A stretch of DNA of 34,978 bases from the NCBI GenBank assembly GCA_013141385.1, contig JABFRB010000046.1, positions 1 to 34,978 on the forward strand, read 5' to 3'. Within the stretch, counting starts at the first letter, position 1; every line of letters starts with the position of its first letter. Below the pieces are notes generated by a model. That model saw only the letters and a list, made by a program, of their open reading frames with translations. It had not been told where the DNA came from and searched no databases. Both the position numbers and the translations under genes were made by a program. This DNA comes from Bacteroidales bacterium (GTDB taxonomy: Bacteria; Bacteroidota; Bacteroidia; Bacteroidales; Tenuifilaceae). This document shows, piece after piece, positions 6,987-34,978 of this stretch.

Positions 6987-7013
6987 CCCAGATACTAGTA
7001 ACTAGTAACCAGA
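6987..7013. repeat. Right octamer array flanking the four-helix-bundle gene
   Basis: The units CCCAGATA, CTAGTAAC, TAGTAACC lie end to end at 6987-7010. Read on the minus strand they give GGTTACTA then GTTACTAG, the same unit type as the left array. AACTAGTAACCAGA (7000-7013) is the exact complement of 6486-6499. Confidence 0.65.
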
Positions 7014-7054
7014 AAAGTATACCTTTATTAAAAAAATGTTGATTAAACAAACTT

Positions 7055-8248: not shown

Positions 8249-8356
8249 TTTATTAACTGTTTAATATGATTTTGAAATCAATTAATATCTTTTGTAACTT
8301 TAAAACGCTAAAATTACATTTTCTTCTGTTTCGAAAAACAATAGATAATAAAAAAT

Positions 8357-8875
8357 ATGCTACTAGTAGATCTTCTTAAAATTGTTCTTCCAGCCCTACT
8401 TGTATTTCTGGCAGGTTATTTAGCCATTGCAAGGCTACTTCGCGATGAGGCAGACCGTCGTAAAGCGGAAAGGACTTTTACCAATCAGCGGATATCAACC
8501 CCAATTAGGCTACAGGCCTATGAAAGGTTGGTGCTTTTTCTTGAACGCATATCGCCTGAATCGATGATAGTTCGGGTAAACCAACCTAGCATGAATGCTC
8601 AAAGGCTTCATACATCTCTTTTAAGTACTATCAGAGCTGAGTGGGAGCATAATCTTTCGCAACAATTATATGTGAGTAACGAGGCTTGGGAGTTAACCCG
8701 TAATGCTAAAGGGAATGTGATAAAACTGATAAATGTTTGCGCTGAAAAAGTTGATCCCGAAGCACCTTCAATTGTTTTCAGCCAGAAGATTCTTGAATTG
8801 TTGGTGGAATTTGAACAACATCCAACAGCACTGGCTATTGAACAGCTAAAGAAAGAGGTTGGGGAGTTTTTCTAG
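8357..8875 (+). CDS. Conserved Bacteroidota membrane-anchored protein of unknown function
   Basis: A 172-residue protein with one N-terminal membrane helix (about residues 5-26, LLKIVLPALLVFLAGYLAIA) followed by a charged, mostly helical domain on the presumed cytoplasmic side (RDEADRRKAERTF just after the helix). It resembles a Bacteroidota-specific uncharacterised family (I believe DUF7935, from memory). No catalytic motif is recognisable. It is divergent from the aminotransferase, stands alone, and ends 27 bases before a strong terminator. Coding is well supported by its length, start and terminator; function is not known. Confidence 0.75.
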   Translation: MLLVDLLKIVLPALLVFLAGYLAIARLLRDEADRRKAERTFTNQRISTPIRLQAYERLVLFLERISPESMIVRVNQPSMNAQRLHTSLLSTIRAEWEHNLSQQLYVSNEAWELTRNAKGNVIKLINVCAEKVDPEAPSIVFSQKILELLVEFEQHPTALAIEQLKKEVGEFF

Positions 8876-8902
8876 CTTTTCAAGATCCCTTCTAATAAAA
8901 AG

Positions 8903-8931
8903 AAAGCCTCGAACTAATTCGAGGCTTTTTT
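8903..8931 (+). terminator. Rho-independent terminator of the 172-residue membrane protein gene
   Basis: An 11-bp perfect stem AAAGCCTCGAA / TTCGAGGCTTT with a CTAA loop is followed by a T run. It is nearly duplicated at 9095-9120. Confidence 0.85.
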
Positions 8932-8944
8932 CTATTTTAACATC

Positions 8945-9070
8945 AGTTCGATGTAAGGTATCATCCTAGTATCTAATCATATAAAAACTAGATGCTTCAC
9001 TCCGTTCAGCATGACAAAACAACAATCTAACACTATGCTTGGGATCAATGTGTTATGCTTACGTCGAACT
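8945..9070. repeat. REP-like inverted repeat between two copies of a terminator
   Basis: AGTTCGATGTAAG (8945-8957) and CTTACGTCGAACT (9058-9070) are complementary at 12 of 13 positions. Between them a short hairpin, GATGCT / AGCATGAC around TCACTCCGTTC (8991-9015), resembles short palindromic repeats common between genes in this phylum. The arms are bracketed by the two related terminator copies (8889-8937 and 9084-9130). No gene is visible in the 264-base gap. Confidence 0.55.
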
Positions 9071-9094
9071 CGCGTTAAGATACCTTCTAAAAAG

Positions 9095-9120
9095 AAAGCC
9101 CCGAACTAATTCGAGGCTTT
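9095..9120 (-). terminator. Terminator of htpG, second copy of the 8903 hairpin
   Basis: Same hairpin as 8903-8928 with one substitution (C at 9101). On the plus-strand transcript this gives a C-A mismatch, but on the minus strand (the htpG mRNA) it gives a tolerated U-G pair, and a T-rich run follows. It therefore best fits termination of htpG. Confidence 0.65.
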
Positions 9121-9139
9121 TTTACTATTTTATTCAAGA

Positions 9140-11188: not shown

Positions 11189-11235
11189 ATCAATATCAAT
11201 TTTAAAGTTTTACAAAAAATCCAATTCTAGCAATT

Positions 11236-11275
11236 TCAAACCTAGTGCCACACTTTTAAGTCTGACATTTAGTCA
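11236..11275 (-). promoter_or_regulatory. Possible control region of htpG
   Basis: Read toward htpG, a short dyad TGAC-n5-GTCA (11275-11263) is followed by TGGCAC-n5-TTGA (11250-11236). The latter resembles a sigma-54 -24/-12 element but has GA instead of the essential GC at -12. No clean TAnnTTTG box is visible. This is a weak candidate only. Confidence 0.25.
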
Positions 11276-11302
11276 CAATTAAAGTAAAGTTGGCAAGTTT
11301 GA

Positions 11303-11845
11303 TTAAAGTTTATAGAAAAAAATCTTATAGATAACCCACATTACAACAAGGAGAAGTATATATCCGATAATAATTTTTAATGAAACAACAAATCGTCTAC
11401 GTTTTTGAGTCAGTCGTTTTTGACTTATAATACCCATTATTATATTATTAATGCGTAGATGTATATTTTCATTCTTTGGAATAAACGTGTATGCGCCACA
11501 TTTCATCACGTAGGATCCATATGAACCTTCATCTGGTCCGGTAAGCATAACTACTTCAATATCTTTATTTACAACTTTTGTTGCCTCAAGAATTTCAACA
11601 CCATTCATAAGGGTGTTACTCCCTTCATCAAAGTACTTATAGCCTAAGAAAACAATGTATATATCGTTAATTTTAAACTTCAACGCCTTTAAATGTGCAA
11701 TAAATTTCTCTCCTGAATTAAAAGTTCTGATATTATACTTTTCTGTATTATCAATACTCTTATTCACGGTTAAGATAAATGCTGGATCATGATCGACCAA
11801 ATAGATATTAGTATCAATTTTGGGTTTTAGCTTAATCTTTTTCAT
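11303..11845 (-). CDS. Membrane-anchored receiver-like protein lacking the phosphoacceptor Asp
   Basis: A 180-residue protein with a response-regulator receiver fold (about 12-140) and a C-terminal membrane helix (about 153-175, VSLKIIIGYILLLVVMWVIY). The acidic pair (Asp18, Asp20 in YLVDHDP), the Thr of strand 4 (Thr102 in VVMLTGPDEG) and the Lys of strand 5 (Lys124 in YTFIPKNEN) are present. The position that should be the phosphorylated Asp reads Gly68 in IVFLGYKYF. No output domain is present. The basic stretch KRLTQKRRR before the helix places the receiver in the cytoplasm. It is the last gene of a minus-strand run, 36 bases after a secreted protein. Probably a non-phosphorylated or docking receiver; partner unknown. 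Confidence 0.75.
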   Translation of the reverse strand: MKKIKLKPKIDTNIYLVDHDPAFILTVNKSIDNTEKYNIRTFNSGEKFIAHLKALKFKINDIYIVFLGYKYFDEGSNTLMNGVEILEATKVVNKDIEVVMLTGPDEGSYGSYVMKCGAYTFIPKNENIHLRINNIIMGIISQKRLTQKRRRFVVSLKIIIGYILLLVVMWVIYKIFFYKL

Positions 11846-11881
11846 GAATAGGTAATAATATACATATAAAAAAAACGCTTT

Positions 11882-12832
11882 CTATTCTTGCTTTTGCATG
11901 GGTAACCCACTTTTGGTTTTATACAAGAACCCTGGTTCTGGCAATTTTTCAGGACTTTCATAATGTTTACCTGGCCCTCTACTAGAATTTCGCATGTCTA
12001 AATTTCTTACATAAATCCAAAAACCCTTTTGGTATTTAAAACCATCAAAAGTAAAATCTGGACCATAAAATTGGTAGTTATCAGCATATTCAGGACTAGA
12101 AGGTGATAGATGGTCGAACACAATGGTTTGTGATTCTGGAACATAGCGAAGAGTCATTGTTACTCTAGCAGAGTATTCAAAAACTACTCTAGATAAAACA
12201 TTATCCCCCACCTTAAAGACATTTGATCCGAATACAGGTTTGTAGTCTTTCCCAAACGTTAAAACTTCAATTATTTTTTTTGAAGAGAAAATATTATTGA
12301 AATCGAACCCAAGTAATACATAATATGTTTTCCCCTTATAAATCTTTTCAATTAACGAATAGTATAAAGCCCCCATCCAATTTGAATCTCCTAATAATTC
12401 TTTTATCGGCGCATTTATTGTCTGCCGACTATCATTAAGTTCAAATATAAACATATTGCCCTTACTCTTCTTGTACATTATGAAACCAAAATATCTCTGA
12501 CACCCTCCTGTTAAAGGGAGATTCCATGTGAAAATTCTTAGTTTACCATCCTTTGATGTAATCCTTCCAATATTTTTTAACGAGTCAAAAGGGTAACTGA
12601 ATGCACCTTCCTTTATCAACGAATTTCGAAATAGTGAAAGTACATTATTATTAGCCTCCTCTTTTTTTGAAAAAGAATTATCCTTTATAATATGACCCAT
12701 TAATACCTTTATACTATCCTCAATCTGATTAAAAGAAACATCGTTAACAGTCTGACATTTAGTATTATAAACGATTAATGTAAGCAGTACTGAACTTAAG
12801 AATATTCGAATCAATGACATGTTTTTCAGCAA
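11882..12832 (-). CDS. Secreted Bacteroidota protein of unknown function
   Basis: A 316-residue protein with a signal peptide (about residues 6-25, LIRIFLSSVLLTLIVYNTKC, cleavage probably near CQ-TV). The Cys at about 26 comes just before the cleavage region but there is no clear lipobox. The mature part is rich in aromatic strands (FIMYKKSKGNMFIFELND, YYVLLGFDFNN, FWIYVRNLDM), suggesting a beta-rich periplasmic domain. I recognise no enzyme motif. A second ATG at residue 5 (12820) is an equally good start. It lies 49 bases after the class III aminotransferase and 36 before the receiver-like gene, so it probably belongs to the same transcript. Confidence 0.65.
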   Translation of the reverse strand: MLKNMSLIRIFLSSVLLTLIVYNTKCQTVNDVSFNQIEDSIKVLMGHIIKDNSFSKKEEANNNVLSLFRNSLIKEGAFSYPFDSLKNIGRITSKDGKLRIFTWNLPLTGGCQRYFGFIMYKKSKGNMFIFELNDSRQTINAPIKELLGDSNWMGALYYSLIEKIYKGKTYYVLLGFDFNNIFSSKKIIEVLTFGKDYKPVFGSNVFKVGDNVLSRVVFEYSARVTMTLRYVPESQTIVFDHLSPSSPEYADNYQFYGPDFTFDGFKYQKGFWIYVRNLDMRNSSRGPGKHYESPEKLPEPGFLYKTKSGLPMQKQE

Positions 12833-12881
12833 TTACAATTTTTAGGATTTACTATATATTAAGGTATTGGCAAATTTAAAA

Positions 12882-14069
12882 TCAGATTTCATCTAATGAC
12901 TTTAAAAGCAAATCAGCAGCATCATGACACTCCTTAATAGTAATACTTAATGGGGGTGCAACTCGAAAGGCAGTATTACAAAATAAAAACCAATCCAAAA
13001 CTACACCATTATTTAATGCAACTTTAATCAACTTCAAAATTTTTTCAAATGAACCAACTTCAATAGCCATAAATAGTCCATCAGACCTTATCTCCTTAAC
13101 ATTCGGGTGCTTACTTAACTTATCATAAAATATTTTAGCTTTTTCATCCACCCCCTCAATTAGCCTTTCGTCAATTAGCACATCCAAAGCAGCAATTGCT
13201 GATGCACAAGAAACAGGGTGTCCACCAAATGTCGTAATGTGCCCTAAGGGTGGATTTGTACTCAAACTGTCCATGATTGTTTTAGACGAAATAAAAGTTC
13301 CTAGTGGCATGCCACCACCCATTGCCTTGGCAAGTAATAGAATATCTGGGATAACTCCATACTTATTAAATGCAAACATCTTTCCTGTTCTTCCAAAGCC
13401 AGTCTGTATTTCATCGAAAATTAAAAGGGAGCCTGTATCATTGCACTTTTTCCGTAATTTATCTAGAAATCCATCAATAGGTGAAATTATACCCGCCTCA
13501 CCCTGAACAGGTTCAACTATAACGCAAGCAGTTTTTTTTGTTATTAAATCTAAATCGGGTAAAAAATTAAACTGAATTTGTTTAATCCCTGGGAGTAAAG
13601 GTCTAAAGGCTCTTTTAGGTTCCTCATTGCCCATTACGCTTAAAGCACCGTGTGTACTTCCGTGATACGCATTAACAAATGAAATTATCTCTGAACGACC
13701 CGTATAGCGTTTTGCTAGTTTTAATGCTCCTTCTACGGCTTCGCTACCCGAGTTAACAAAGTATACATTATTAAGTGCCTCTGGTAGAATAGAAGTTAAC
13801 CTTTGGGCAAATCTCACTTGTGGGTATTGAATATATTCACCATAAACCATAAGATGCATATACTTTGAGGTCTGAATATTTACGGCCTCAACCACCCTCG
13901 GGTGGCAATGGCCAACATTGCTAACCGAAACACCTGATATTAAATCAAAGTAACGTTTCCCATCAGATCCAAATAAATAAACCCCTTCAGCTCGTTCTAT
14001 CTCAAGCGAAAGAGGCGATTCAGATGTTTGGGCAACATGCTTAAGAAATAGTTGCCTAAGACTTAACAT
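12882..14069 (-). CDS. Class III aminotransferase (acetylornithine/4-aminobutyrate type)
   Basis: PLP-dependent transaminase acting on omega-amino groups. Motifs are FDLISGVSVSNVGHCHPRV (about 41-59), VNSGSEAVEGALKLAKR (about 105-121) for cofactor phosphate, the AYHGSTHGALS turn (about 134-144), IFDEIQTGFGRTGKMFA with Asp219, and Schiff-base Lys248 in LLLAKAMGGGMP. Length 395 is typical. Without arginine-biosynthesis neighbours the natural substrate is uncertain; acetylornithine, lysine or beta-alanine are all possible. The stop of the upstream LytTR gene is 10 bases away, so these two are co-transcribed. Confidence 0.9.
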   Translation of the reverse strand: MLSLRQLFLKHVAQTSESPLSLEIERAEGVYLFGSDGKRYFDLISGVSVSNVGHCHPRVVEAVNIQTSKYMHLMVYGEYIQYPQVRFAQRLTSILPEALNNVYFVNSGSEAVEGALKLAKRYTGRSEIISFVNAYHGSTHGALSVMGNEEPKRAFRPLLPGIKQIQFNFLPDLDLITKKTACVIVEPVQGEAGIISPIDGFLDKLRKKCNDTGSLLIFDEIQTGFGRTGKMFAFNKYGVIPDILLLAKAMGGGMPLGTFISSKTIMDSLSTNPPLGHITTFGGHPVSCASAIAALDVLIDERLIEGVDEKAKIFYDKLSKHPNVKEIRSDGLFMAIEVGSFEKILKLIKVALNNGVVLDWFLFCNTAFRVAPPLSITIKECHDAADLLLKSLDEI

Positions 14070-14079
14070 TTAAGTAAAA

Positions 14080-14793
14080 TTATTTATTCATTAAATTAAT
14101 CTCATTTAGGAGTTTCTCTTTATAGGACTTACCAATTGGTATAACTTTCTTAATTTCATTCAATTTAATGATAACAGAATTATCCTCAATACTTGTTATC
14201 CTGCTAATATTTACAATAAAAGATCTATGAACACGTTTGAATTTTATTGAAGGCAATTGGTTTTCAATCGACTTCATTGTAAAATGTATTGTAAATTTAT
14301 CATTTATAGTATTGATAACAACATAATTCTCCAACGCTTCAATCCAAAGTATATCATTATACTTAATCCTAACTAAAGAGCTGTTTTTTTTAATAAAGAT
14401 TTCCTTTTCAACATCTACATTAGCGCGGCCTTTATTGAAAATTTCATAAGCCTTACTTACTGCTTTAAAGTAACGTGCATAAGTAATTGGTTTAAGCAAA
14501 TAATCAGTAACGCTATAATCAAATGCTTGAATAGCATATTCCTCCTTTGAGGAAATAATAACTACTTGAGGTGGAGTCAATAAAGTATTCAAAAAATCAA
14601 TTCCACTCATCTCGGGCATTTCAATATCGAGAAAAATTAAATGTACATCCTCATCCTGCTTTACATAATTAATTGCTTCTACTGCATTTGAAAAGGAGTT
14701 TTTAAGATTTAAGAAGTCCGTACGGTTAATAAACTCTTCCACTACCCTTCTCGACATCTCATCATCATCTATTATAATACAGTTCATATGCAT
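14080..14793 (-). CDS. LytTR-family response regulator without an adjacent kinase
   Basis: Cytoplasmic DNA-binding regulator. The receiver shows IIIDDDE at the N-terminus, phosphoacceptor Asp in LIFLDIEMPEMSG (about residue 56) and DYLLKPITYARYF for the conserved Lys. The LytTR domain occupies about 130-236 (ILWIEALENYVVI, FKRVHRSFIVNISRI). Start choice is open between ATG at 14793 and ATG at 14787; a TTG at 14796 is less likely. No histidine kinase is adjacent, so it may be served by a remote LytS-type kinase, for example one like that at 135. It heads into the aminotransferase gene and may control this run. Confidence 0.88.
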   Translation of the reverse strand: MHMNCIIIDDDEMSRRVVEEFINRTDFLNLKNSFSNAVEAINYVKQDEDVHLIFLDIEMPEMSGIDFLNTLLTPPQVVIISSKEEYAIQAFDYSVTDYLLKPITYARYFKAVSKAYEIFNKGRANVDVEKEIFIKKNSSLVRIKYNDILWIEALENYVVINTINDKFTIHFTMKSIENQLPSIKFKRVHRSFIVNISRITSIEDNSVIIKLNEIKKVIPIGKSYKEKLLNEINLMNK

Positions 14794-14839
14794 CAATATT
14801 TTGACCGAATTTAATAAAAATTATGTGAATTCATCAAAT

Positions 14840-15571
14840 TCATAGGTCAGTATTTTTTAAAGATTCAACTTTCTTTTCAAATAAAAAACGTTTTTCCATC
14901 ATTTCCCACTTTTTAGTTGTTGCTTTTAGCCACAATAAAAGAAGATCTTCCCTTTCATCATCAGATAATTGATATTGAATATTAGAATCTCTTAGTGTTT
15001 TTGTAAGTGAGTATAAGACTATTGCAGCAGAGACCGATATATTAAAACTTTCCGTAAAACCATACATAGGTATTGATACGAATTCATCGGCATTGTTTAA
15101 AACCGTCTTTGATAATCCAGAAAGTTCAGTTCCAAAAAACAAAGCAACTTTCCCTTTTTGTAAATCAAAACGATCCAAAGGGACTTCTTCTGTGTGAGGT
15201 GTTGTAGCTAAGATTCTATATCCTTCATTTCTAAGCACCTCTATTGCCTTAATAGAATTATCAGGCTCATTTTTATATTTTTTGATTGTTAGCCATTTGT
15301 TGGAACCCAAAACTACCTGCGGGTTGATATTAAAACTATGTCTATTCTCAATAATATGAATATCTTGAAGACCCAAACAATCGCAAGTACGTAATACTGC
15401 ACTAGCGTTTTGTGATTGATAAATATCCTCAAGAACTACTGTAATATATCTAGTTCTAGACTCAAGCACCCTTTGGATTTGAGAAACTCTTCGCTCATAG
15501 ATACATTCCGATAAAAAAGCAATAAAGTCTTTTTTTAATGAAGGGTCTCTGGCAATAAGACTATTATCCAC
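14840..15571 (-). CDS. TrmH/SpoU-family RNA 2'-O-methyltransferase
   Basis: SPOUT-class methyltransferase that uses AdoMet to methylate a ribose 2'-OH, most likely in tRNA. Motif 1 is NASAVLRTCDCLGLQDIHIIE (split here by family convention), motif 2 is VALFFGTELSGLS, and motif 3 is IPMYGFTESFNISVSAAI; these form the trefoil knot. N- and C-terminal helical extensions match tRNA (Gm18) TrmH enzymes more than 23S enzymes, which carry an extra L30-like domain. Length 243. The start is GTG at 15571 (protein begins MDNSLIARD); no upstream ATG is in frame. G18 of tRNA is the likely target, but this is inferred from family. Confidence 0.85.
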   Translation of the reverse strand: MDNSLIARDPSLKKDFIAFLSECIYERRVSQIQRVLESRTRYITVVLEDIYQSQNASAVLRTCDCLGLQDIHIIENRHSFNINPQVVLGSNKWLTIKKYKNEPDNSIKAIEVLRNEGYRILATTPHTEEVPLDRFDLQKGKVALFFGTELSGLSKTVLNNADEFVSIPMYGFTESFNISVSAAIVLYSLTKTLRDSNIQYQLSDDEREDLLLLWLKATTKKWEMMEKRFLFEKKVESLKNTDL

Positions 15572-15684
15572 TTGAATAAAATTTAGTTAAACAATTATAT
15601 ATCTGAATATAATATAACGCAAGTTCGATTTTAAAAACATGACAATGTGTTTATTTGCAGTAGCATATGAATATTTAGCTTGGC

Positions 15685-15795
15685 GATGGAAGGTTGGAAT
15701 AATGAAATAATGAAATTTCTTGTAACTTTTTTCTTCCAAAATTGACTTCGCCGAGTTCCGCTTTGCTCCAGTTCCATTTTTCCATCATTCCAATT
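15685..15795. repeat. Octamer-periodic inverted-repeat element without a gene
   Basis: The left side has AATAATGA twice in tandem (15698-15713) after TTGG. The right side has TTCCATTT, TTCCATCA, TTCCAATT at 15772, 15780 and 15788, an exact 8-base period. Left TTGGAATAATGAAA and the complement of the right side, TTGGAATGATGGAA, agree at 12 of 14 positions. Same architecture as 5348-5428 and the arms at 6473-7013. Confidence 0.65.
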
Positions 15796-16007
15796 AAATT
15801 TTATGTGCATAATACTGATTAATATGCAATTAAACAACTCTTTATATCGAACTGACATTAATATACCAAATAATTTTAGCAATATAGATTCAAAACCTAT
15901 GATGATATTTTTTTATTGATTTTTTCAAATCTTTATACTCGAATCATCAACTTGTACATTATCCCTTAGGTATTTCATCTTCTTTTTTCATAGAAAAAAG
16001 ACAAAAC

Positions 16008-16041
16008 AAAAAAAGGAGAACCAATGGTCCTCCTTTTTTTT
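16008..16041 (-). terminator. Terminator of the HU gene
   Basis: AAAAAAAGGAG-a-ACC / GGT-c-CTCCTTTTTTT with an AAT loop, lying 14 bases after the HU stop. A and T runs on both sides make it work in either direction. Confidence 0.85.
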
Positions 16042-16054
16042 GTATGAAAAGCAA

Positions 16055-16327
16055 CTATTGTACGTGTCCGCTAAGATCACTACCTGGTTTGAATTTTACA
16101 ACCTTTTTAGCTTTAATAGTAATAGGTTTGCCAGTTTGAGGATTACGGCCAGTTCTTGCGCTTCTCTTATTAACTGAGAATGAACCAAAACCTACAAGAG
16201 CTACTCTATCGCCTTTTTTTAGAGCTGTACCAGTTGTTTTTACAAAAGCGTCAAGAGCTTTTTTAGCATCTGCTTTAGTTAAACCAGCTTCACCTGCAAT
16301 TGCATCGATAAGTTGTGCTTTGTTCAT
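16055..16327 (-). CDS. HU-family nucleoid DNA-binding protein
   Basis: A 90-residue histone-like protein that bends and compacts DNA as a dimer. It has the complete fold: helical N-terminus NKAQLIDAIAGEAGLTKADA, dimer strand VALVGFGSFSV, the DNA-binding arm ARTGRNPQTGKPI with the Pro that intercalates at bends, and the closing helix VKFKPGSDLSGHV. Length is the classical 90. It is a single gene with a strong -33/-7 promoter, a roughly 40-base leader and its own terminator, consistent with high expression. Whether it is the main HU or a paralogue cannot be decided here. Confidence 0.95.
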   Translation of the reverse strand: MNKAQLIDAIAGEAGLTKADAKKALDAFVKTTGTALKKGDRVALVGFGSFSVNKRSARTGRNPQTGKPITIKAKKVVKFKPGSDLSGHVQ

Positions 16328-16374
16328 AATTGTACTTTTTTAGGGTTAATAATAGTTAGTTGACCATCACATTA

Positions 16375-16405
16375 CAAAGATAGCGTATTTATTGGGTTCT
16401 CCAAA
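16375..16405 (-). promoter_or_regulatory. Promoter of the HU gene
   Basis: On the minus strand, -33 TTTG (16405-16402), a 19-base spacer and -7 TATCTTTG (16382-16375) match the Bacteroidota consensus in both boxes. Transcription should start near 16368. Confidence 0.75.
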
Positions 16406-16551
16406 TTTTTTATCAAATAAATTATGTAAAAGTGGCGTTTTTTTTGCCTTTCACAAGATCCGTTGATTTTGTTAACGCTAAATTATTGAAAAATTCTTTA
16501 ATAAAGCAAAGGTTTTGTCAATAAAAATAAAATATTTTTTAACAAAAGGAT

Positions 16552-16581
16552 TTTGAAAAAATAAAAAAGAAATTACCTTTG
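16552..16581 (+). promoter_or_regulatory. Promoter of the first tRNA-Ser gene
   Basis: -33 TTTG at 16552-16555, an 18-base spacer and -7 TACCTTTG at 16574-16581. The predicted start falls at or just before the first base of the mature tRNA (16588), so little or no 5' leader is expected. Confidence 0.75.
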
Positions 16582-16587
16582 CCCCCC

Positions 16588-16674
16588 GGAGAAATGGCAG
16601 AGCGGTCGAATGCGGCGGTCTTGAAAACCGTTGACCTCGCGAGGGGTCCGGGGGTTCGAATCCCTCTTTCTCCG
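16588..16674 (+). tRNA. tRNA-Ser (anticodon TGA)
   Basis: An 87-base class II tRNA. The acceptor arms GGAGAAA (16588-16594) and TTTCTCC (16667-16673) pair fully, with discriminator G. The anticodon stem-loop reads CGGTC-TTGAAAA-CCG with TGA as anticodon. A long variable arm (GACCTCGCGAGGGGTC) typical of serine tRNA precedes the T arm GGGGGTTCGAATCCCTC. CCA is not encoded. Confidence 0.95.
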
Positions 16675-16687
16675 CTTCAAATCATGG

Positions 16688-16717
16688 AAAAAACCCGTTT
16701 TTTAACGGGTTTTTTTT
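16688..16717 (+). terminator. Terminator after the first tRNA-Ser
   Basis: A 12-bp stem AAAAAACCCGTT / AACGGGTTTTTT with a TTTT loop and a T run, 13 bases after the tRNA. Confidence 0.85.
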
Positions 16718-16782
16718 GATTTTTCAGGCTTTGCATCTATTTTTTCATTTGAACTTCTCAGAAAAAACAAGAAAAATTGTTG

Positions 16783-16813
16783 TTGTTAAATCGACCGAAA
16801 GTATCTACTTTTG
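16783..16813 (+). promoter_or_regulatory. Promoter of the second tRNA-Ser gene
   Basis: TTG at 16783-16785, a 20-base spacer and -7 TACTTTTG at 16806-16813. The -7 box matches fully and the -33 is partial. The predicted start is about 15-20 bases before the tRNA. Confidence 0.65.
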
Positions 16814-16836
16814 CAATCCCTGTTCAAATAGTAATT

Positions 16837-16925
16837 GGAGAGATGCCGGAGCGGTCGAACGGGGCGGTCTCGAAAACCGTTGATCTAGGTAACTGGATCC
16901 GAGGGTTCGAATCCCTCTCTCTCCG
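16837..16925 (+). tRNA. tRNA-Ser (anticodon CGA)
   Basis: An 89-base class II tRNA with acceptor arms GGAGAGA (16837-16843) and TCTCTCC (16918-16924), discriminator G, anticodon loop CTCGAAA (anticodon CGA), long variable arm and T arm GAGGGTTCGAATCCCTC (16901-16917). CCA is not encoded. It is clearly a paralogue of the tRNA-Ser(TGA) 160 bases upstream. Confidence 0.95.
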
Positions 16926-16927
16926 CA

Positions 16928-16962
16928 AAAAAAACGAAAGTCCTTATGACTTTCGTTTTTTT
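16928..16962 (+). terminator. Terminator after the second tRNA-Ser
   Basis: AAAAAAACGAAAGTC / GACTTTCGTTTTTTT, a 15-bp stem with a CTTAT loop, starting two bases after the tRNA. The A/T runs allow action in both directions. Confidence 0.85.
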
Positions 16963-17036
16963 GTTATCAATACTCTCCAGTTTCTTTTAAGGTAATAATG
17001 CCAAAATTAGTTGGTGATTTTGTTTTTATCTCATAA

Positions 17037-17092
17037 AAATTTCTTTAGAAATCCTCTCTCACAAATGGGTGGAGAGGTTTATAAAGAAATTT
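17037..17092. repeat. Long imperfect hairpin in the 317-base gap before the ABC exporter
   Basis: Outer arms AAATTTCTTTA (17037-17047) and TAAAGAAATTT (17082-17092) pair perfectly over 11 bp, and inner arms CCTCTC (17053-17058) and GAGAGG (17072-17077) over 6 bp. A T run follows on the plus strand. It is not directly behind any gene end (the exporter stop is 151 bases away). Nothing else was found in 16963-17242. Confidence 0.5.
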
Positions 17093-17242
17093 TTTTCATC
17101 ATCTATTGAAACACCCTCCAATAGAGTATCAGTAAACTCAATAAGAACAAGAGGTGTATGAGTTTTTAACAACTATTTTTGGCATATATACCCTTTTAAT
17201 GAAGTAACGCTGGAATCATATAATATATAAATAGGTATAGCC

Positions 17243-19063
17243 TTATAAGGTTTGTAGGTTATATAGTTTTGTATAAATCCCATTCAGAACTATCAAATCC
17301 TCGTGTTTCCCTCTTTCAACAATCTCTCCTTCGTGGAGAACACAAATAAGATCTGCATTACGAACTGTTGAAAGCCTATGGGCAATTACCAATGAGGTAC
17401 GATGCTTCATTAGATTTTCGATTGCCTCTTGTACTAATTTTTCTGATTCAGTATCTAGTGCACTTGTAGCCTCATCGAGAATCATAATTGGGGGGTTTTT
17501 AAGAATAGCTCTAGCTATACTTACCCGTTGGCGCTGACCTCCAGAAAGTTTACTGCCTCTATCCCCAATATTTGAATAGTAACCATTGGGCGTGGCAACA
17601 ATAAAATCGTTTGCATTAGCTATTTTGGCAGCACTAGTAACAAATTCTTCCGAAGTATTCTCAACGCCAAATGCTATATTATTGAAAAATGTATCGTTAA
17701 AAAGTATTGGCTCTTGGTTAACATTTCCCATTAATCCACGAAGACTTTCAAGGGTATACTCCTTTATATTAATACCATCAATCAAAATTTCACCCTCCTC
17801 AAGATCATAGAATCTGGGAAGTAAGTCGACCATAGTGCTTTTACCCGATCCTGATTGTCCAACAAGTGCAACCGTTTTTCCTTTTTCAATTGTTAGGTTA
17901 ATATTTTTAAGAACATAATCATCCTCGTATTTAAAACTTACATTCTTATATTCAATAATCGATTCAAAACTTTTTATTGCTTTTGCGTCCACACTATTTT
18001 TAATACTGTTTTCAGCACTAAGAATAGTATCAATACGATCAGCCGAAGCCAATCCCTTAATAATATTAAAATATGCGCTAGAAAATGATTTTGCAGGGTT
18101 TATAATCATATAGAAACAGGCTACATAACCAATTAGAACCTCCCCAGAAAGATTACTATTCCCGCTAAGAATAAGTTTTCCGCCATACCATAGTACAAGT
18201 GCAATAACTACTGTTCCTAAAAATTCACTTAATGGTGAGGCTAGGTCTCGTCTCCGCCACATTTTGATCATAAGACGAGTGTAAAAACTATTGGTATTCT
18301 CAAAACGCTTCGTAACCTTTCCTTCAGCATTGAATGCTTTAATGATTCGAAGTCCTCCAAGCGTCTCCTCAATAATCGAGAGAAGAGTGCCCATCCTTTT
18401 TTGCCCCTTAAAGGATGTTTTCTTCAAGTTTTTACCAATTCGACCAATTATAAAACCAGCAATAGGTAATAAGATAAGTACAAACATTGTTAAGCTGGGA
18501 CTCATCTTAATTAGTATCAATAGATATACAATAATTGCAATAGGATCTCTAAAAAACATTTCCAGAGATCTAATTATTGAAACTTCTATCTCATTAACGT
18601 CATTGGTCATTTTACTAATAATGTCGCCTTTCTTCTCATCAGAAAAATAACTTAATGGCAATACCATAATCTTTTGAAATAGAGCATTCCTTATATCCTT
18701 AACTACGCCATTCCTAATTGGAGCCAAAAACCATAAAGCAAGATATGAGAAAAGATTTTTCAAAAAAGAGGTGACGATAACTAAAACAATTATAAATAAC
18801 AGCGCTTTGGCTTTGCCATGTTCCGTGATTATTTGGGATACCAAATAATTAAAGTATTGAGTTATTGAGTCGACATTAAACGTAAATTCTGGTTTTACAT
18901 CAACTAAAGGTTGTGTTCCAAAAAGCACTTTTAAGAAGGGGATTGCCATTAAAATTGAAAACAAGCCAAAAGCAGTTCCCAAAAGATTGGTGGTAATATT
19001 AGCTATTGCTTGCCATTTATAAGGATATATAAAGCGGAAAACCTTAAAAAATCTTTTCATCAA
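17243..19063 (-). CDS. MsbA-like ABC exporter (fused permease and ATPase)
   Basis: Half-transporter that dimerises to flip or export lipids, LPS core or drugs across the inner membrane. A six-helix transmembrane domain spans about 15-335 (segments near 17-45, 88-112, 168-185, 190-208, 283-300, 310-322). The nucleotide-binding domain follows: Walker A GQSGSGKST (about 402-410), Q-loop VNQEP, signature LSGGQRQR (about 508), Walker B IMILDEATSALD and switch IAHRLST. Length 606 suits MsbA-like proteins. The N-terminal coupling helix DEKKGDIISKMTNDV is typical. Substrate is not certain; lipid A export is the usual role in this phylum. Single gene with its own promoter. Confidence 0.9.
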   Translation of the reverse strand: MMKRFFKVFRFIYPYKWQAIANITTNLLGTAFGLFSILMAIPFLKVLFGTQPLVDVKPEFTFNVDSITQYFNYLVSQIITEHGKAKALLFIIVLVIVTSFLKNLFSYLALWFLAPIRNGVVKDIRNALFQKIMVLPLSYFSDEKKGDIISKMTNDVNEIEVSIIRSLEMFFRDPIAIIVYLLILIKMSPSLTMFVLILLPIAGFIIGRIGKNLKKTSFKGQKRMGTLLSIIEETLGGLRIIKAFNAEGKVTKRFENTNSFYTRLMIKMWRRRDLASPLSEFLGTVVIALVLWYGGKLILSGNSNLSGEVLIGYVACFYMIINPAKSFSSAYFNIIKGLASADRIDTILSAENSIKNSVDAKAIKSFESIIEYKNVSFKYEDDYVLKNINLTIEKGKTVALVGQSGSGKSTMVDLLPRFYDLEEGEILIDGINIKEYTLESLRGLMGNVNQEPILFNDTFFNNIAFGVENTSEEFVTSAAKIANANDFIVATPNGYYSNIGDRGSKLSGGQRQRVSIARAILKNPPIMILDEATSALDTESEKLVQEAIENLMKHRTSLVIAHRLSTVRNADLICVLHEGEIVERGKHEDLIVLNGIYTKLYNLQTL

Positions 19064-30320: not shown

Positions 30321-30592
30321 TAAAATTCCCGCCCTATTGCCTATTAATCATTAACTTGAAACTCTGTTTCCGTAAATTTCAATCTACCTTCTTACTAATC
30401 TCTTCTTATAGTCTAAATAATATATATTTTTTATAACTATTATTTATATTTTTCATAACTTACATTGTTTAATTTTATATTAAATTCTTATTGCGCATTA
30501 ATGATATAATACAATATTTTAATCATAATAACAAATAGGCGATTACCGAAAAGCCTTAATAGAGTAGGTAAAAATTATGAAAAATTTTAACT
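30321..30592. other. AT-rich leader region before the first precursor gene
   Basis: 272 bases with no gene of normal size, much more AT-rich than the flanks and unlike the spacers between the precursors. A short dyad TTACC / GGTAA at about 30544-30571 and a duplicated start region (TATGAAAAATTT at 30576 and 30592) are visible. No TAnnTTTG box with good spacing was found, so the promoter of the peptide cluster remains unassigned. Confidence 0.5.
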
Positions 30593-30784
30593 ATGAAAAA
30601 TTTAAAATTAGACAGACTCACTTCAAACAGGTTTGATGTGAATGAATTAATTAAAATTAAAGGTGGAATATTAATTTGTGCTTGTCAACCCATGCATCCT
30701 TGCTATTGCAGAAGTTTTGACGATGCTTCTGATACAGCAGCAAATAACGAATTTTCGCGGTTTAACGTAAGGACTGCTGATTAA
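30593..30784 (+). CDS. RiPP precursor peptide 1, GG-Bacteroidales type
   Basis: A 63-residue peptide. The leader (1-25) contains LKLDRLTSNRFDVNEL and ends KIKGG, the double-glycine processing site. The core has Cys29, Cys31, Pro33, His35, Cys37 and Cys39, a CxCxPxHxCxC array, then an acidic linker and tail SRFNVRTAD. From memory this fits TIGR04149, precursors matched to a radical-SAM maturase and a pseudo-radical-SAM protein, both present 1.3 kb downstream. It is the most diverged of the three copies (Pro36 instead of Gln; FNVR instead of FDIK). Cys thiols are the likely modification sites. ATG at 30593; a near-identical decoy ATG lies 16 bases upstream in another frame. Confidence 0.88.
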   Translation: MKNLKLDRLTSNRFDVNELIKIKGGILICACQPMHPCYCRSFDDASDTAANNEFSRFNVRTAD

Positions 30785-31074
30785 TTGTGCCAACTGAATT
30801 ATCAACCCCAGCAGCATTAAACAATAAAAACTATTTAAGTGCTTTCTGGGGTTGATTGATAAAAATCTAATCATGAACTTATTTTTAAAAAAGTATTGAA
30901 CTATACCTTGTTTGAACAACAGCTCAGTCCAATTAATAGATTTTATATAGATTAGTCTTGAATACTTTATCTAAAGTAAAAGATTACACTAAAACTCTCC
31001 CATACCTCAAAGCAGGAAAACCCAATCAGTAATGGGCAATGCTTACTGAAATACATGTTTAAAATTAATTAATT
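30785..31074. repeat. Spacer repeat, copy 1 (between precursors 1 and 2)
   Basis: This 290-base spacer is nearly the same as 31267-31551. From about 30905 to 31074 only a handful of differences are seen. It holds a 3' hairpin (ATCAACCCCAG 30801-30811 / CTGGGGTTGAT 30846-30856) and a 5'-leader segment before precursor 2 with CCCA-n8-TGGG (31021-31036) overlapping CAGTAA-n10-TTACTG (31027-31048). No extra gene is visible. Confidence 0.85.
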
Positions 31075-31266
31075 ATGAAAAAGTTAAAATTAGACAGACT
31101 TACATCAACCCGGTTTGATGTGAATGAATTAATTAAAATCAAAGGTGGATTATTAATCTGTGCTTGTGGGCCTTTTCATCAGTGCTATTGCTTATCGGAA
31201 GACTCATTCTCTGATGCTACTGCACAGAACACACCTTCGCGATTTGACATAAAGACTGCTCAATAA
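31075..31266 (+). CDS. RiPP precursor peptide 2, GG-Bacteroidales type
   Basis: A 63-residue paralogue of precursor 1. Leader KKLKLDRLTSTRFDVNELI, then KIKGG at 21-25; core LLICACGPFHQCYC with Cys29, 31, 37, 39, Pro33 and His35; acidic, Ser-rich linker (SEDSFSDATAQN); tail TPSRFDIKTAQ. The leader differs from precursor 3 at one residue only (Ile20 versus Arg20) while the core differs widely. It sits in a tandem array of about 480-base units and has a conserved AT-rich leader sequence with two overlapping hairpins. Confidence 0.9.
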   Translation: MKKLKLDRLTSTRFDVNELIKIKGGLLICACGPFHQCYCLSEDSFSDATAQNTPSRFDIKTAQ

Positions 31267-31551
31267 TAGTCTAAATGGATCACCAACCCCAGTATTAAAT
31301 AATATAAACTATTTAAGTGCTTGCTGGGGTTGGTTGATAAAAATCTAATCATGAACGTATTTCAAAAAATATATTGAACTATACCTTATTTGAACAACAG
31401 CTCAGTCCAATTAATAGATTTTATATAGATTAGTCTTGAATATTTATCTAAAGTAAAAGATTACACTAAAACTCTCCCATACCTCAAAGCAGGAAAACCC
31501 AATCAGTAATGGGCAATGCTTACTGAAAAATATGTTTAAAATTAATTAATT
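31267..31551. repeat. Spacer repeat, copy 2 (between precursors 2 and 3)
   Basis: A 285-base near-copy of 30785-31074. Its 3' hairpin is ACCAACCCCAG (31282-31292) / CTGGGGTTGGT (31324-31334); the second base pair is C-G where copy 1 has T-A, a compensatory change. The leader hairpins recur at 31498-31513 and 31504-31525. Confidence 0.85.
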
Positions 31552-31743
31552 ATGAAAAAATTAAAATTAGACAGACTTACATCAACCCGATTTGATGTGA
31601 ATGAATTAAGGAAAATCAAAGGTGGATTTCTATTCTGCGGTTGTGGACCTCTTCATCAGTGCTTTTGCGGAGGGGATGACATGTTCTCTAATGAAGTTGC
31701 AGAGAACACACCTTCGCGATTTGACATAAAGACTGGGGAGTAA
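31552..31743 (+). CDS. RiPP precursor peptide 3, GG-Bacteroidales type
   Basis: A 63-residue paralogue of precursors 1 and 2. The leader is nearly identical (RKIKGG at 20-25), the core reads FLFCGCGPLHQCFCGG with the same Cys29/31/37/39, Pro33, His35 spacing, the linker is GDDMFSNEVAEN and the tail TPSRFDIKTGE. Against precursor 2 the leader codons show about 4 differences, the core and linker about 22 in 81 bases, and the next 30 tail bases none. The gene is followed by a spacer interrupted by a MITE-like insertion before the maturase gene. Confidence 0.9.
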   Translation: MKKLKLDRLTSTRFDVNELRKIKGGFLFCGCGPLHQCFCGGDDMFSNEVAENTPSRFDIKTGE

Positions 31744-31793
31744 TTGTTTAAATGGATCACCAACCTCGGTATTAAATAATAAAAACCATTTAA

Positions 31794-31947
31794 TTCTACT
31801 TTAACAGATTGCTTATAACACGAAAAATCAACCCAATTTTACCCCTACCCCTAAAGGAATTGGGTTGATTTTTTTGCTTTCTCCCTTTAGGGTTTGGGGT
31901 AAAAAAGCAAAGAAAATCAAGTTTATTTCAAATCTGTTAAAGAAGAA
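31794..31947. mobile_element. MITE-like 154-bp insertion with TTAA target duplication
   Basis: Terminal inverted repeats TTCTACTTTAACAGATT (31794-31810) and AATCTGTTAAAGAAGAA (31931-31947) pair at 16 of 17 positions. TTAA flanks both ends (31790-31793, 31948-31951). The homologous spacers of precursors 1 and 2 read CTATTTAAGTGCT with a single TTAA, which gives the empty site. The interior is a nest of palindromes without coding capacity. It splits the conserved 3' hairpin arms of this spacer. Confidence 0.85.
31823..31875 (+). terminator. Terminator-shaped hairpin carried by the MITE-like element
   Basis: A 16-bp perfect stem AAAAATCAACCCAATT (31823-31838) / AATTGGGTTGATTTTT (31858-31873) with a 19-base loop and a T run. 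It lies between precursor 3 and the maturase gene, where it could reduce read-through into the maturase (inference). Confidence 0.6.
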
Positions 31948-32067
31948 TTAAGTGCTAGCTGGGGTTGGTTGATAAAAATATCAACATAAACTTATTTCAA
32001 AATAATTATTCAACTATTCCTAATTTGAACCGCAATTCACAATTTAATATTATTAAAAAATTGTATT

Positions 32068-33459
32068 ATGATAAGTGAAGAATTTTTCTACGACAACGAA
32101 ACCAGATACTTTGTTCTGCAACCACAAAATGAGCTAAGTAGAAATAAAAAAGAGGAATATTTAAGGAGCGTAGGCTTTTATAAACAGCTAGACAAAAAGA
32201 AAAAACTCTCGGGGAGGTTTACCGAGGATCACATAAAAGACTCTCTGGCAAATGCACTACAAGTTGTATTTGAAGTAACTGAGAACTGCAACCTAGAGTG
32301 CAAGTATTGTGGTTATGGGGAGCTGTACAGTGGAAAGAATTCGAAAAGAGAAAAAACAAACTTACCTCTGGTTTATGCAATCAACTTTTTAAATTATATC
32401 AATGAATTTCTAAATAAAAACCTGAACAGATCACTCAATAAAACTATTGCAATAAGCTTTTACGGGGGTGAACCATTACTAAATATTGAGTTTATAAAAT
32501 CCGTTGTTGACTATGTAAATAAAATTAAAAACGATAATTTCAATCCAAGGTTTGCAATGACCACAAATGCGCTGCTCCTAAAAAAGCATATCGCATTCCT
32601 TGCCGAGAACAATTTCAGGTTACTTGTAAGCTTGGATGGTAATAAAGATAACAATTCATATAGGGTATACCCCAACGGAAAAGATGCATTCAATGAGATT
32701 ATCGAAAACATTGATTTTGTATACCATAATTATCCCGAATTTTTTAGAAGAAGTGTTGACTTTAATACGGTTATCCATAACCGAAACTCGGTAAGCGAAG
32801 CATTCAACTTTATTAATGATAGGTATAGCAAACACACAAAACTTTCGGAGTTGAATACATCTGGAATAAACGAGGATAAAAAGTATGAGTTCTGGGAGAA
32901 ATATAAAAATATCAACGAGGATTTAGACCAAAGCGAAGATTATCGTTTTATTCGCGATAAACTTTCTGTTGAAACACCAGTAATTGGGCAAGTATCAAAA
33001 TTTATTCATGTTTACACTAATAATGTTTACCAAAAGTATATCGATTTCTTTGAAGTCTCTGCCAACAGCACATATCTACCTACAGGAACTTGCATTCCTT
33101 TTTCAAGAAAGATATTTATTACCTCAAGAGGAAAAATACTACCCTGCGAAAGAATTTCCGATGAATTTTCAACAATGGGTTACATCTCCGAGACCGATGT
33201 TTTTATTGATTTTAAGGGAATAATTAGCCGCATGAATGGCATTTACGATAACCTTTGGGATAGCCAATGCAATCAGTGCTTTTATGCCGATAAATGTATG
33301 CAGTGTGTATTTAATCTGGACTTGGGTAAAGATAAACTTACCTGCCATGGTTATAAGCATGAAAGCAAATCAGCCCAAATAATTTCTACCCATTTGAGCG
33401 CATTAAAAAAAGAAAGAAAGTTTTATAAAAAAATATTAAAAGAGATATTCTATGCATAA
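32068..33459 (+). CDS. Radical-SAM/SPASM peptide maturase of the GG-Bacteroidales system
   Basis: A 463-residue iron-sulfur enzyme that should generate the 5'-deoxyadenosyl radical from AdoMet and modify the upstream precursor cores. The radical-SAM motif is Cys74-x3-Cys78-x2-Cys81 in TENCNLECKYCGYGEL, followed by SFYGGEPLLN (the GGEP AdoMet motif) and MTTNALLL. The C-terminal SPASM region carries about seven further Cys (GTCIPFSRK, KILPCERI, QCNQCFYADKCMQC, LTCHGY) for auxiliary Fe-S clusters. From memory this matches TIGR04148. The N-terminal 60 residues may contain a leader-binding element. Thioether or other Cys-linked crosslinks are the likely product, not proven. It overlaps the next gene by eight bases. 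Confidence 0.9.
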   Translation: MISEEFFYDNETRYFVLQPQNELSRNKKEEYLRSVGFYKQLDKKKKLSGRFTEDHIKDSLANALQVVFEVTENCNLECKYCGYGELYSGKNSKREKTNLPLVYAINFLNYINEFLNKNLNRSLNKTIAISFYGGEPLLNIEFIKSVVDYVNKIKNDNFNPRFAMTTNALLLKKHIAFLAENNFRLLVSLDGNKDNNSYRVYPNGKDAFNEIIENIDFVYHNYPEFFRRSVDFNTVIHNRNSVSEAFNFINDRYSKHTKLSELNTSGINEDKKYEFWEKYKNINEDLDQSEDYRFIRDKLSVETPVIGQVSKFIHVYTNNVYQKYIDFFEVSANSTYLPTGTCIPFSRKIFITSRGKILPCERISDEFSTMGYISETDVFIDFKGIISRMNGIYDNLWDSQCNQCFYADKCMQCVFNLDLGKDKLTCHGYKHESKSAQIISTHLSALKKERKFYKKILKEIFYA

Positions 33460-34588
33460 ATGGTTGTATTTAGATCCCTACGCTGAGATAACTTTTAATC
33501 ATTCGAAGAAAAGATGCCTCATTTTTAACACACTCGATTCAAAGAAATATTTATTTGAAGGCAAAGAGTATGAAATGATAAAAAGAATATCCCAAAATGA
33601 TTATTCAACAAAAATTACTGATAACGATGAAGAGGAGTATAAATCCCTTATCGGTAAATTTGAAGATAACTTTTTTGGAGGTATTTACACCTCTACTGAT
33701 AAGCCATTAATCCTTTACCCTATCATAAATATCCAAAGAAACCTTAGGAAATTTAAGCAAATACCCTACCGCGATCAGGGAACTGATATTCTTGAGAACT
33801 TGCTCGAAATATCTATCCATTTTAAGAATAACGACTTTATAAAGATTGATAAAATAATTCAGCTAATCCGTGATGCTGAAAATAGCTCTTTAAAGAAGAT
33901 AAATATTTTAATTGATTCGTATTCTACAAATAAAGATGCGGTTGAAATATTGATATCATTTCTAAAAACAGCCAAGATTAAGACCTATATCGATATTAAT
34001 ATCAAGGAGTACTACTCTTTTATAAACAATTTACCCGATGTTAAATCCAATCAGATATTCTCTTTGCATGTAATAATAGCAGATTTCGATTTCTCCGAAA
34101 AAATTATGGAGGAGAAAAACATCAAGCTAAAATTTAAAATATCAAATGAAGAAGAGTACAACTACTATTTCAATAAAATCTCAAACAATATTGAATACGA
34201 TTTCGAAATTGATTACTCAAAAGCTGATGCTAGCTTTTTAAGTGAAAATATATATTTAAACGAAGAGGATATTCAGGAGATTAAGCTAACCAAGCAGAAT
34301 TACGATGCAAACAAAATGCTGAACAGGAATTTATTCGGAAAACTAGTTATTAAAGATAATGCTATTTATAGCTGCGAGAATAGCACTAAAGCAATTGCAA
34401 ACTTAGATAATGAAATAAACCTGAAACAAATTATATTCGATGCATTATGCAAATCGAACTACTGGTTTTTTACTAGAAATAATGTAATGCCATGCAAAGC
34501 GTGTTTGTACAAAAACTTATGTCCCCCAATTACCGAGAATGAACTACAAATAAAGAAATTTAATCTTTGCAATGTGCTAACCATGTAA
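33452..34588 (+). CDS. Pseudo-radical-SAM partner protein of the GG-Bacteroidales system
   Basis: A 378-residue protein without any CxxxCxxC motif. It begins HKWLYLDPYAEITFN, then a segment (about 20-50) that resembles the winged-helix RiPP recognition element in pattern (KRCLIFNTLDSKKYLF). The middle is a helix/strand alternation compatible with a degenerate TIM barrel. The C-terminus retains a Cys-rich, SPASM-like tail (VMPCKACLYKNLCPP, then FNLC). From memory this is TIGR04150, always found with the maturase and GG precursors. It probably binds or positions the precursor for its catalytic partner (inference). Its start lies within the maturase gene, so the pair is translationally coupled. 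Confidence 0.85.
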   Translation: MHKWLYLDPYAEITFNHSKKRCLIFNTLDSKKYLFEGKEYEMIKRISQNDYSTKITDNDEEEYKSLIGKFEDNFFGGIYTSTDKPLILYPIINIQRNLRKFKQIPYRDQGTDILENLLEISIHFKNNDFIKIDKIIQLIRDAENSSLKKINILIDSYSTNKDAVEILISFLKTAKIKTYIDINIKEYYSFINNLPDVKSNQIFSLHVIIADFDFSEKIMEEKNIKLKFKISNEEEYNYYFNKISNNIEYDFEIDYSKADASFLSENIYLNEEDIQEIKLTKQNYDANKMLNRNLFGKLVIKDNAIYSCENSTKAIANLDNEINLKQIIFDALCKSNYWFFTRNNVMPCKACLYKNLCPPITENELQIKKFNLCNVLTM

Positions 34589-34852: not shown

Positions 34853-34978
34853 TGTCTTGTCCTAAAATAGGTTGACAAAAAACCAAACAAAATGTCAACT
34901 TAAAACAGGATTAACATGAGAACAGTAAACCGCTACACGGACGAATTCAAGAAAAATGTGGTAAAAGAAGTTTTGGAG
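34853..34978 (+). mobile_element. Left end of an IS3-like insertion sequence (partial)
   Basis: The likely left terminus starts TGTCTTGTCCTAAAATAGG. Shortly inside, GTTGACA (34871-34877) and TGTCAAC (34893-34899) form a 7-bp dyad before the transposase start. The exact terminus cannot be fixed without the right end, which is outside the window. Confidence 0.55.
34916..34978 (+). CDS. Transposase OrfA start, IS3-like (partial)
   Basis: ATG at 34916 with AGGA five bases before it. The 21 codons visible encode MRTVNRYTDEFKKNVVKEVL, then E, closely like the N-terminal helix of IS3/IS911-type OrfA (transposase_8) DNA-binding subunits, where 'YTxEFKxxVV' is typical. It runs off the right edge, so integrity is unknown. 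Confidence 0.7.
   Translation, partial: MRTVNRYTDEFKKNVVKEVLE

Follow-up and report, generated by a model that had tools for sequence, protein, structure and literature searches.

A Bacteroidales radical-SAM peptide locus with three tandem precursors, a pseudo-radical-SAM partner and upstream RNA pseudoknots

What kind of peptide is made, and under what control, where three small Gly-Gly (GG) leader genes stand in tandem before a radical S-adenosylmethionine (SAM) enzyme and a second, overlapping gene? The question is raised by the right end of contig JABFRB010000046.1 from a Bacteroidales bacterium (assembly GCA_013141385.1, genome 5.55 Mb); the window analysed here is this whole contig of 34,978 bp. 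The locus (positions 30593-34588) comprises three tandem open reading frames (ORFs) of 63 amino acids (aa), one of 463 aa and one of 378 aa, the last two sharing an 8-nt overlap (Table 1). An earlier note had described it as a compact system for ribosomally synthesized and post-translationally modified peptides (RiPPs), with three GG-leader precursors, a SPASM radical-SAM maturase and an overlapping pseudo-radical-SAM partner. All of these ORFs were found and the system is real: an intact-looking variant of a known, uncharacterised kind of RiPP locus, plus an unexpected RNA layer. The RNA elements, the hairpins, a miniature inverted-repeat transposable element (MITE) and a paralogous cluster were all absent from that note.

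We read the locus, with a probability of roughly 0.6, as a TIGR04148/TIGR04150-type RiPP operon with RNA-preceded precursors, a leader-presenting partner, a thioether-forming maturase and C39 export in trans. Three precursors, with a conserved leader and diversified cores, each lie behind their own 5' RNA pseudoknot, which may regulate them, and the hairpin after each precursor probably raises precursor message over enzyme message. The partner would bind the leader through an N-terminal domain resembling a RiPP recognition element (RRE) and form a complex with the maturase, as suggested by its fold, the gene overlap and the precedent of TrnC/TrnD. By its similarity to CteB, the SPASM maturase would crosslink cysteines of the CxCxPxHxCxC core through thioethers, and an exporter with a C39 peptidase, its gene at another place in the genome, would cut after GG and export the product, at a guess a secreted competition or signalling peptide.

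Table 1. Features of the locus, in order of position in the window.
Feature	Positions	Strand	Details
DUF805b RNA (RF02914), H-type pseudoknot	30536..30570	+	45.3 bits against a gathering score of 35.6, full length
Precursor 1	30593..30784	+	63 aa, GG leader, core ICACQPMHPCYC; TIGR04149 14.4 bits, below cut-off 25
RNA hairpin after precursor 1	30798..30860	+	-23.0 kcal/mol, z -3.3
Unnamed RNA element (model R2) before precursor 2, hairpin + H-type pseudoknot	30991..31056	+	84.8 bits, in training set
Precursor 2	31075..31266	+	63 aa, core ICACGPFHQCYC; TIGR04149 16.1 bits, below cut-off 25
RNA hairpin after precursor 2	31279..31338	+	-27.1 kcal/mol, z -5.3
Unnamed RNA element (model R2) before precursor 3	31468..31533	+	86.3 bits, in training set
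Precursor 3	31552..31743	+	63 aa, core FCGCGPLHQCFC; TIGR04149 21.1 bits, below cut-off 25
Third RNA hairpin, split by the MITE	31760..31968	+	arms 31760-31769 and 31959-31968; arms and short flanks pair at -22.4 kcal/mol
MITE-like insertion	31794..31947	.	154 bp; terminal inverted repeats 92% over 24 nt; TTAA direct repeats (target duplication) on both sides
Radical-SAM/SPASM peptide maturase	32068..33459	+	463 aa, CNLECKYC at residue 74; TIGR04148 444.8 bits
Pseudo-radical-SAM partner	33452..34588	+	378 aa; RRE-like N-terminus, degenerate barrel, auxiliary Cys CX2CX5CP...C; TIGR04150 170.6 bits

Family and precursors of the locus

Judged by sequence, the family assignment given earlier is right in kind, with precursors and partner divergent. 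Among the three models that had been named, TIGR04148 matched the maturase above its curated cut-off of 300 bits (residues 50-460 against model positions 3-411 of 411), and TIGR04149 and TIGR04150 stayed below theirs for the precursors and the partner; the partner match covers the full length (E 5.5e-50, curated cut-off 250 bits), and all 29 aligned partners match TIGR04150. A scan of the species-genome collection returned 38 maturase loci. Three of them, L025, L026 and L027 (maturases 83, 90 and 88% identical to that of the locus), are close and come from three of the four other genomes of the same genus, the fifth genome, G003, giving no match. Each of them has one precursor, a maturase and a partner in the same order, and the enzymes are 463 and 378 aa long in all four genomes. 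Against these three maturases, nonsynonymous divergence (dN) was 0.046-0.090 and synonymous divergence (dS) 0.58-1.10, a ratio of 0.08-0.09. The arrangement is thus more than chance, because order and enzyme lengths are kept in four genomes, maturase dN is far below dS and the leaders are conserved.

The four-Cys core proposed earlier was borne out as C-x-C-x5-C-x-C in 6/6 aligned precursors, in which C29, C31, P33, H35, C37 and C39 are invariant. When the six precursors were searched against 148 genomes (this one included), full-length matches occurred in the four genomes of the genus only, so the core CxCxPxHxC[YF]C appears restricted to one genus within this sample. Weaker matches fell in paralogous clusters of the genus and in five other genomes, of which four showed the core usual for the GG family and one (L077) gave an implausible frame containing a stop. 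One paralogous cluster lies in the same genome (L063, C1:32000-46000) and has five precursors, a 499-aa maturase and a 413-aa partner; its cores are all C-x-C-x-C-x-C, and its precursors score 28.5-37.3 bits with TIGR04149, over the cut-off. By eye, genes beside it resemble a two-component pair and an exporter of the MacA/MacB/TolC type.

The three leaders of the locus differ by 1-3 residues per 25 aa (6/75 nt between precursors 1 and 2, 4/75 between 2 and 3; dN 0.03), and the cores differ at 40/114 and 26/114 nt, with nearly equal dN and dS (0.47/0.50 and 0.26/0.31). The spacers 3' of precursors 1 and 2 are identical at 266/285 positions (93%, 5 gap columns). Near-identical spacers and leaders, together with divergent cores whose dN is close to dS, fit a recent tandem amplification in which cores have been diversified or exchanged behind a fixed leader. 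In precursors 2 and 3 the leader segment TSTRFDVN (residues 10-17) resembles TPSRFDIK near the C-terminus (residues 53-60). As a leader/follower repeat (TSTRFDV/TPSRFDI) this resemblance is a candidate: among the six sequences it is strong just in precursors 2 and 3, and 45/2000 column shuffles match the six-sequence score.

Maturase, partner and the modified core

All 33 aligned maturases keep CX3CX2C plus seven later cysteines (C342, C360, C401, C404, C410, C413 and C426); from 37 frames of the relatives, this alignment (A6) omits L063, L052, L057 (incomplete) and the weaker of the two frames in each of L038 and L041. The best solved relative by sequence profile was CteB (5wgg, E 4.2e-29), and a Foldseek search with the maturase model (mean predicted local distance difference test score, pLDDT, 80.0) placed CteB entries at ranks 1-3. 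Because this nearest solved enzyme is a thioether maturase, it is plausible that the locus makes a new class of crosslinked peptide, as suggested earlier. The core residues could instead serve a metal- or copper-binding peptide with CxC...H...CxC ligands, the enzyme adding a non-thioether modification of the kind seen in bufferin-like or other Cys-rich RiPPs. The Cys2-His-Cys2 spacing is indeed invariant, and for four thiols there are just three invariant residues further on (S46, A50 and N52 in the six aligned precursors) as possible thioether acceptors. The closest solved enzymes are thioether maturases, however, and no metal-related gene was recognised beside the cluster, where the two genes upstream of precursor 1 are sulfatase-like and PAP2 (Pfam names) and the relatives' neighbours were judged by eye; we consider a metal-binding product rather improbable. 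By eye, L027 has the same upstream sulfatase and PAP2 genes, and metG lies downstream in L025 and L026.

The partner model was of high confidence (pLDDT 90.3, predicted template modelling score 0.85), and Foldseek matched it to TigE (E 6.2e-8), then to EpeE (1.8e-3) and a heterocyclase, which we take to be LynD (2.0e-3). The strands (E) and helices (H) of residues 2-81 follow the order E E E E H E H H E, where a PqqD-like RRE would have three strands and then three helices together with a sequence related to PqqD; the partner's N-terminal profile aligns to PqqD at P 0.0005-0.0009. In 17/33 maturases the radical-SAM motif lies inside the first 43 residues (taking the first ATG of the frame as start); fewer than 45 residues then precede the motif, leaving no room for an RRE or other leader-binding domain. 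For this reason we infer that the partner probably presents the leader. When N-terminal profiles of partners and maturases were compared, no relation emerged (probability 0.3-1.1%).

Calling the partner of this locus a pseudo-enzyme is right: CX3CX2C is gone, CX2CX5C and the last Cys are still there, and the segment around CX3CX2C is missing from the partners of its lineage. Across the 29 aligned partners (alignment A5, the window plus L025-L061, with L063 and L039 left out of 30 frames beside the relatives' maturases), CX2CX5CP is kept in all, and CX3CX2C in 14, the locus partner being among the 15 that lack it. The family name "pseudo-rSAM" thus fails for half of this sample. Since 15/29 partners are without the motif, their radical chemistry has been dispensable in evolution. 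A coupling of motif loss to a short maturase N-terminus was also considered, and none was seen when the alignments were inspected by reading.

Three Peptidase_C39 frames of 718-733 codons occur elsewhere in the genome and could supply the exporter. By eye, no transporter was seen in L025-L027 among the ORFs in 7000-18000.

A MITE-like insertion separates precursor 3 from the maturase (Table 1). It has 15 other matches longer than 100 nt in the same genome at 75-97% identity (of 19 matches listed). Together with a partner that scores below the TIGR04150 cut-off and has lost its radical-SAM loop, its position between precursors and enzymes could mean that the locus is decaying and the partner a dying duplicate. 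This we regard as quite improbable: the frames are open and their lengths conserved in four genomes, the partner is 74-89% identical to those of L025-L027, and the low dN/dS (for the maturase only) is as given above; the spacer just before the maturase measures 151-168 bp without such an insertion in the relatives, against 324 bp here.

Several points nevertheless weigh against an operon with a leader-presenting partner, a thioether-forming maturase and export in trans. The MITE may lower enzyme expression. The crosslinks are a prediction from the similarity to CteB, and the maturase N-terminus is poorly modelled (blocks of pLDDT 50-64 in residues 1-40). For the partner, TigE was the one Foldseek match below E 0.001, without aligned ranges, and the PqqD match of the partner's N-terminal profile is weak (HHalign probability 13-23%); long maturase N-termini likewise align to PqqD (P 0.004), and the Pfam entries listed for the 29 partners include none of PqqD type. 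Finally, an exporter may lie past the contig edge rather than in trans, since just 390 bp of contig remain 3' of the partner.

RNA elements around the precursor genes

The element before precursor 1 ends 22 nt upstream of its ATG and belongs to the Rfam family DUF805b (RF02914), for whose function no paper was found in the literature searched. Its pseudoknot is supported by covariation across 49 of 50 sites (alignment A3, omitting L135, a repeat of the element of L119): 92.3% of cells are paired and 6/7 pairs changed on both sides, with four of five measures reached by 0/500 shuffles and the fifth by 7/500. Nine sites in this genome exceed the gathering score, with nine more up to E 0.1, and the 50 sites are those above the gathering score in 40 genomes, this one included. 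A downstream gene, defined as the first ATG frame of at least 28 codons within 60 nt, is present after 49/50 sites, and a GG-leader gene was called if it had at most 160 aa and followed an [ILVMF]xGG rule. By these definitions 18/50 sites precede GG-leader genes, with 14/23 in the genus (5/9 in this genome, where the idea arose, and 9/14 in the other three) and 4/27 in other relatives. In a class-wide sample the count was 2/29 (29 of 59 sites outside this genome listed, one per genome), and one of those two cases, L158, looks by eye like a lipoprotein.

The background rate of GG-leader genes, taken at every position of the 50 loci on both strands, is 5.1%, or 8.0% for AT-rich starts. The difference between the genus and the rest gave a Fisher p of 1.1e-5, with sites within one genome or genus not independent; grouped by eye into families, 8/17 have a GG leader (p 2e-5 against 8%). 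DUF805b as a general RiPP switch was therefore rejected, because the bias is confined to the genus (14/23 versus 6/56 outside it with both samples pooled). Nor is DUF805b part of TIGR04148 systems at large: a search with its model (R1) over the window, the 38 maturase loci and L063 gave good scores only in the window and at one remote site in L043, with six further matches at E 0.065-0.86. In the same genome, two further small GG-leader/radical-SAM loci (L091, L095, L098; C18 and C2) stand behind DUF805b RNAs, and their cores are short, rich in Y, P and I, and without Cys.

Before precursors 2 and 3 the corresponding place is taken by another element, which none of 12 Rfam 15 matches up to E 5 overlapped at either site. 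A 35-nt block 5' of these two precursors and of the single precursors of L025-L027 is identical at 31-33/35 positions between species, with 16-25/55 in the 55 nt directly upstream. Allowing up to 3 mismatches, the block pattern was found in this genome only at these two sites and in the genus at two more, both in G002, where they precede other Cys-rich GG-leader genes that have radical-SAM genes nearby. These seven sequences were made into a covariance model (R2), which gave 13 matches when run over 197 genomes (E <=0.01), namely the seven training sequences, four strong ones (L217, L220, L218 and L221; E <=3e-6) and two weak ones (G327 and G114) in other families with no GG-leader gene downstream. 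Ten of the 13 lie 17-24 nt upstream of a GG-leader gene; the match in L218 is close to a contig edge, without a gene to judge.

With the five sequences of the locus's own precursor family set aside, the independent evidence for R2 is two G002 loci. The first is a cluster in which four GG precursors are accompanied by a C39-type exporter and two radical-SAM/SPASM genes, with NCBIfam matches below cut-offs, and in the second a GG peptide (TIGR04149 22.4 bits) stands next to a protein that weakly matches VKOR and C39, no radical-SAM gene being seen beside it. In the four-precursor cluster of G002, at L223:5851-13899, the GG precursors are Cys-rich, two of the four with CxGG repeats, and its two radical-SAM/SPASM proteins reached no equivalog cut-off among the 25 matches listed for each. 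Rfam 15 gave no match up to E 1 at the four copies of the element in L223. Over the set of loci searched with R1, good R2 scores were confined to the window (twice), L025, L026 and L027, with one more match at E 0.82.

Across 11 sequences, 93.5% of R2 cells are paired (27-45% when the pairing is slid) and 8/17 pairs changed on both sides; the covariation score was 0.295 versus 0.155 in shuffles, and for each of the five measures 0/500 shuffles reached the observed value. With the first seven sequences alone this support was weak. Single-sequence folding of the element was ordinary (z -0.02 to -0.9), as expected since the pseudoknot is left out of such folding. One could instead see the elements before precursors 2 and 3 as DNA operators with the dyad TCAGTAA-N10-TTACTGA, given that the pseudoknot stem doubles as this dyad, that 4/7 of its pairs are invariant and that folding without the pseudoknot is unremarkable. 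Compensatory changes also occur in the two other stems, which are interleaved with the dyad, the distance to the ATG is fixed, and the same place before precursor 1 is filled by DUF805b, a covarying pseudoknot; these observations make DNA operators unlikely.

The two RNA elements also exchange places. Inside the operon, DUF805b stands at precursor 1 and R2 at precursors 2 and 3, and the C22 system of this genome has DUF805b where the C14 system of G002 has R2, the radical-SAM enzymes being 71% identical and the leaders alike. Because G002 also carries a C22-like precursor with DUF805b (L138), the latter exchange is between paralogous systems and not strict orthologues. R2 may be a new structured RNA family for secreted GG-leader peptides, forming with DUF805b a genus-specific, interchangeable pair of 5' switches that governs several radical-SAM RiPP systems and perhaps senses a common metabolite or the peptide machinery, a proposal that we see as evenly poised.

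The hairpins after the precursors had z scores of -3.3 to -6.5 in five sequences, and one stem position reads U-A, C-G, U-A, C-G and G-C across the five. Outside the locus, two tRNA genes with a long variable arm were noticed at 16588-16674 and 16837-16925, and a transposase-like start was seen by eye at 34916-34978, its frame running off the contig end.

Relation to known systems

The earlier statement that no characterised product was known agrees with the literature searched, in which no such product of TIGR04148/TIGR04150 systems was found. The TIGR model names turned up there in two papers, both of in silico work (PMC4573289, PMC8939145), and TIGR04150 does not occur in the portion of PMC12710340 covered. 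Pseudo-radical-SAM proteins are described in PMC10352776 as without assigned function and thought to act together with a radical-SAM enzyme. These systems recur in Bacteroidales without a product in that literature. With a partner lacking the radical-SAM site and 17/33 maturases lacking room for a leader domain, leader presentation becomes a directly testable role for the pseudo-enzyme. Through the upstream pseudoknots one can approach the control of secreted modified peptides in these bacteria, and a search for the RNA, in place of the peptide, is a route to further precursor genes.

The locus resembles the GG-Bacteroidales system (TIGR04149/TIGR04148/TIGR04150) in its GG-leader precursors, a SPASM maturase over the cut-off and an adjoining partner homologous over its full length. 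It differs in that precursors and partner score below cut-off, in a CxCx5CxC core with PxH where relatives commonly have cores like CxCxCYYAxxGGSSxxDNxxAN, in the upstream RNA pseudoknots, and in that no exporter was seen beside it. The element before precursor 1 is a full-length DUF805b RNA above the gathering score, whereas those before precursors 2 and 3 differ from it in sequence and gave no match to any Rfam family. With CteA/CteB and other radical-SAM thioether (ranthipeptide and sactipeptide) systems the locus shares the maturase fold, the SPASM domain and a Cys-rich core. CteB carries its own leader-binding domain, whereas here the maturase N-terminus is short and a second protein follows. 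Thuricin CD likewise has two radical-SAM-fold proteins per system, but TrnD is still an active radical-SAM enzyme and the partner here is without the motif; according to PMC12093266, the TrnC/TrnD pair is a working complex in which one of the radical activities is not strictly required.

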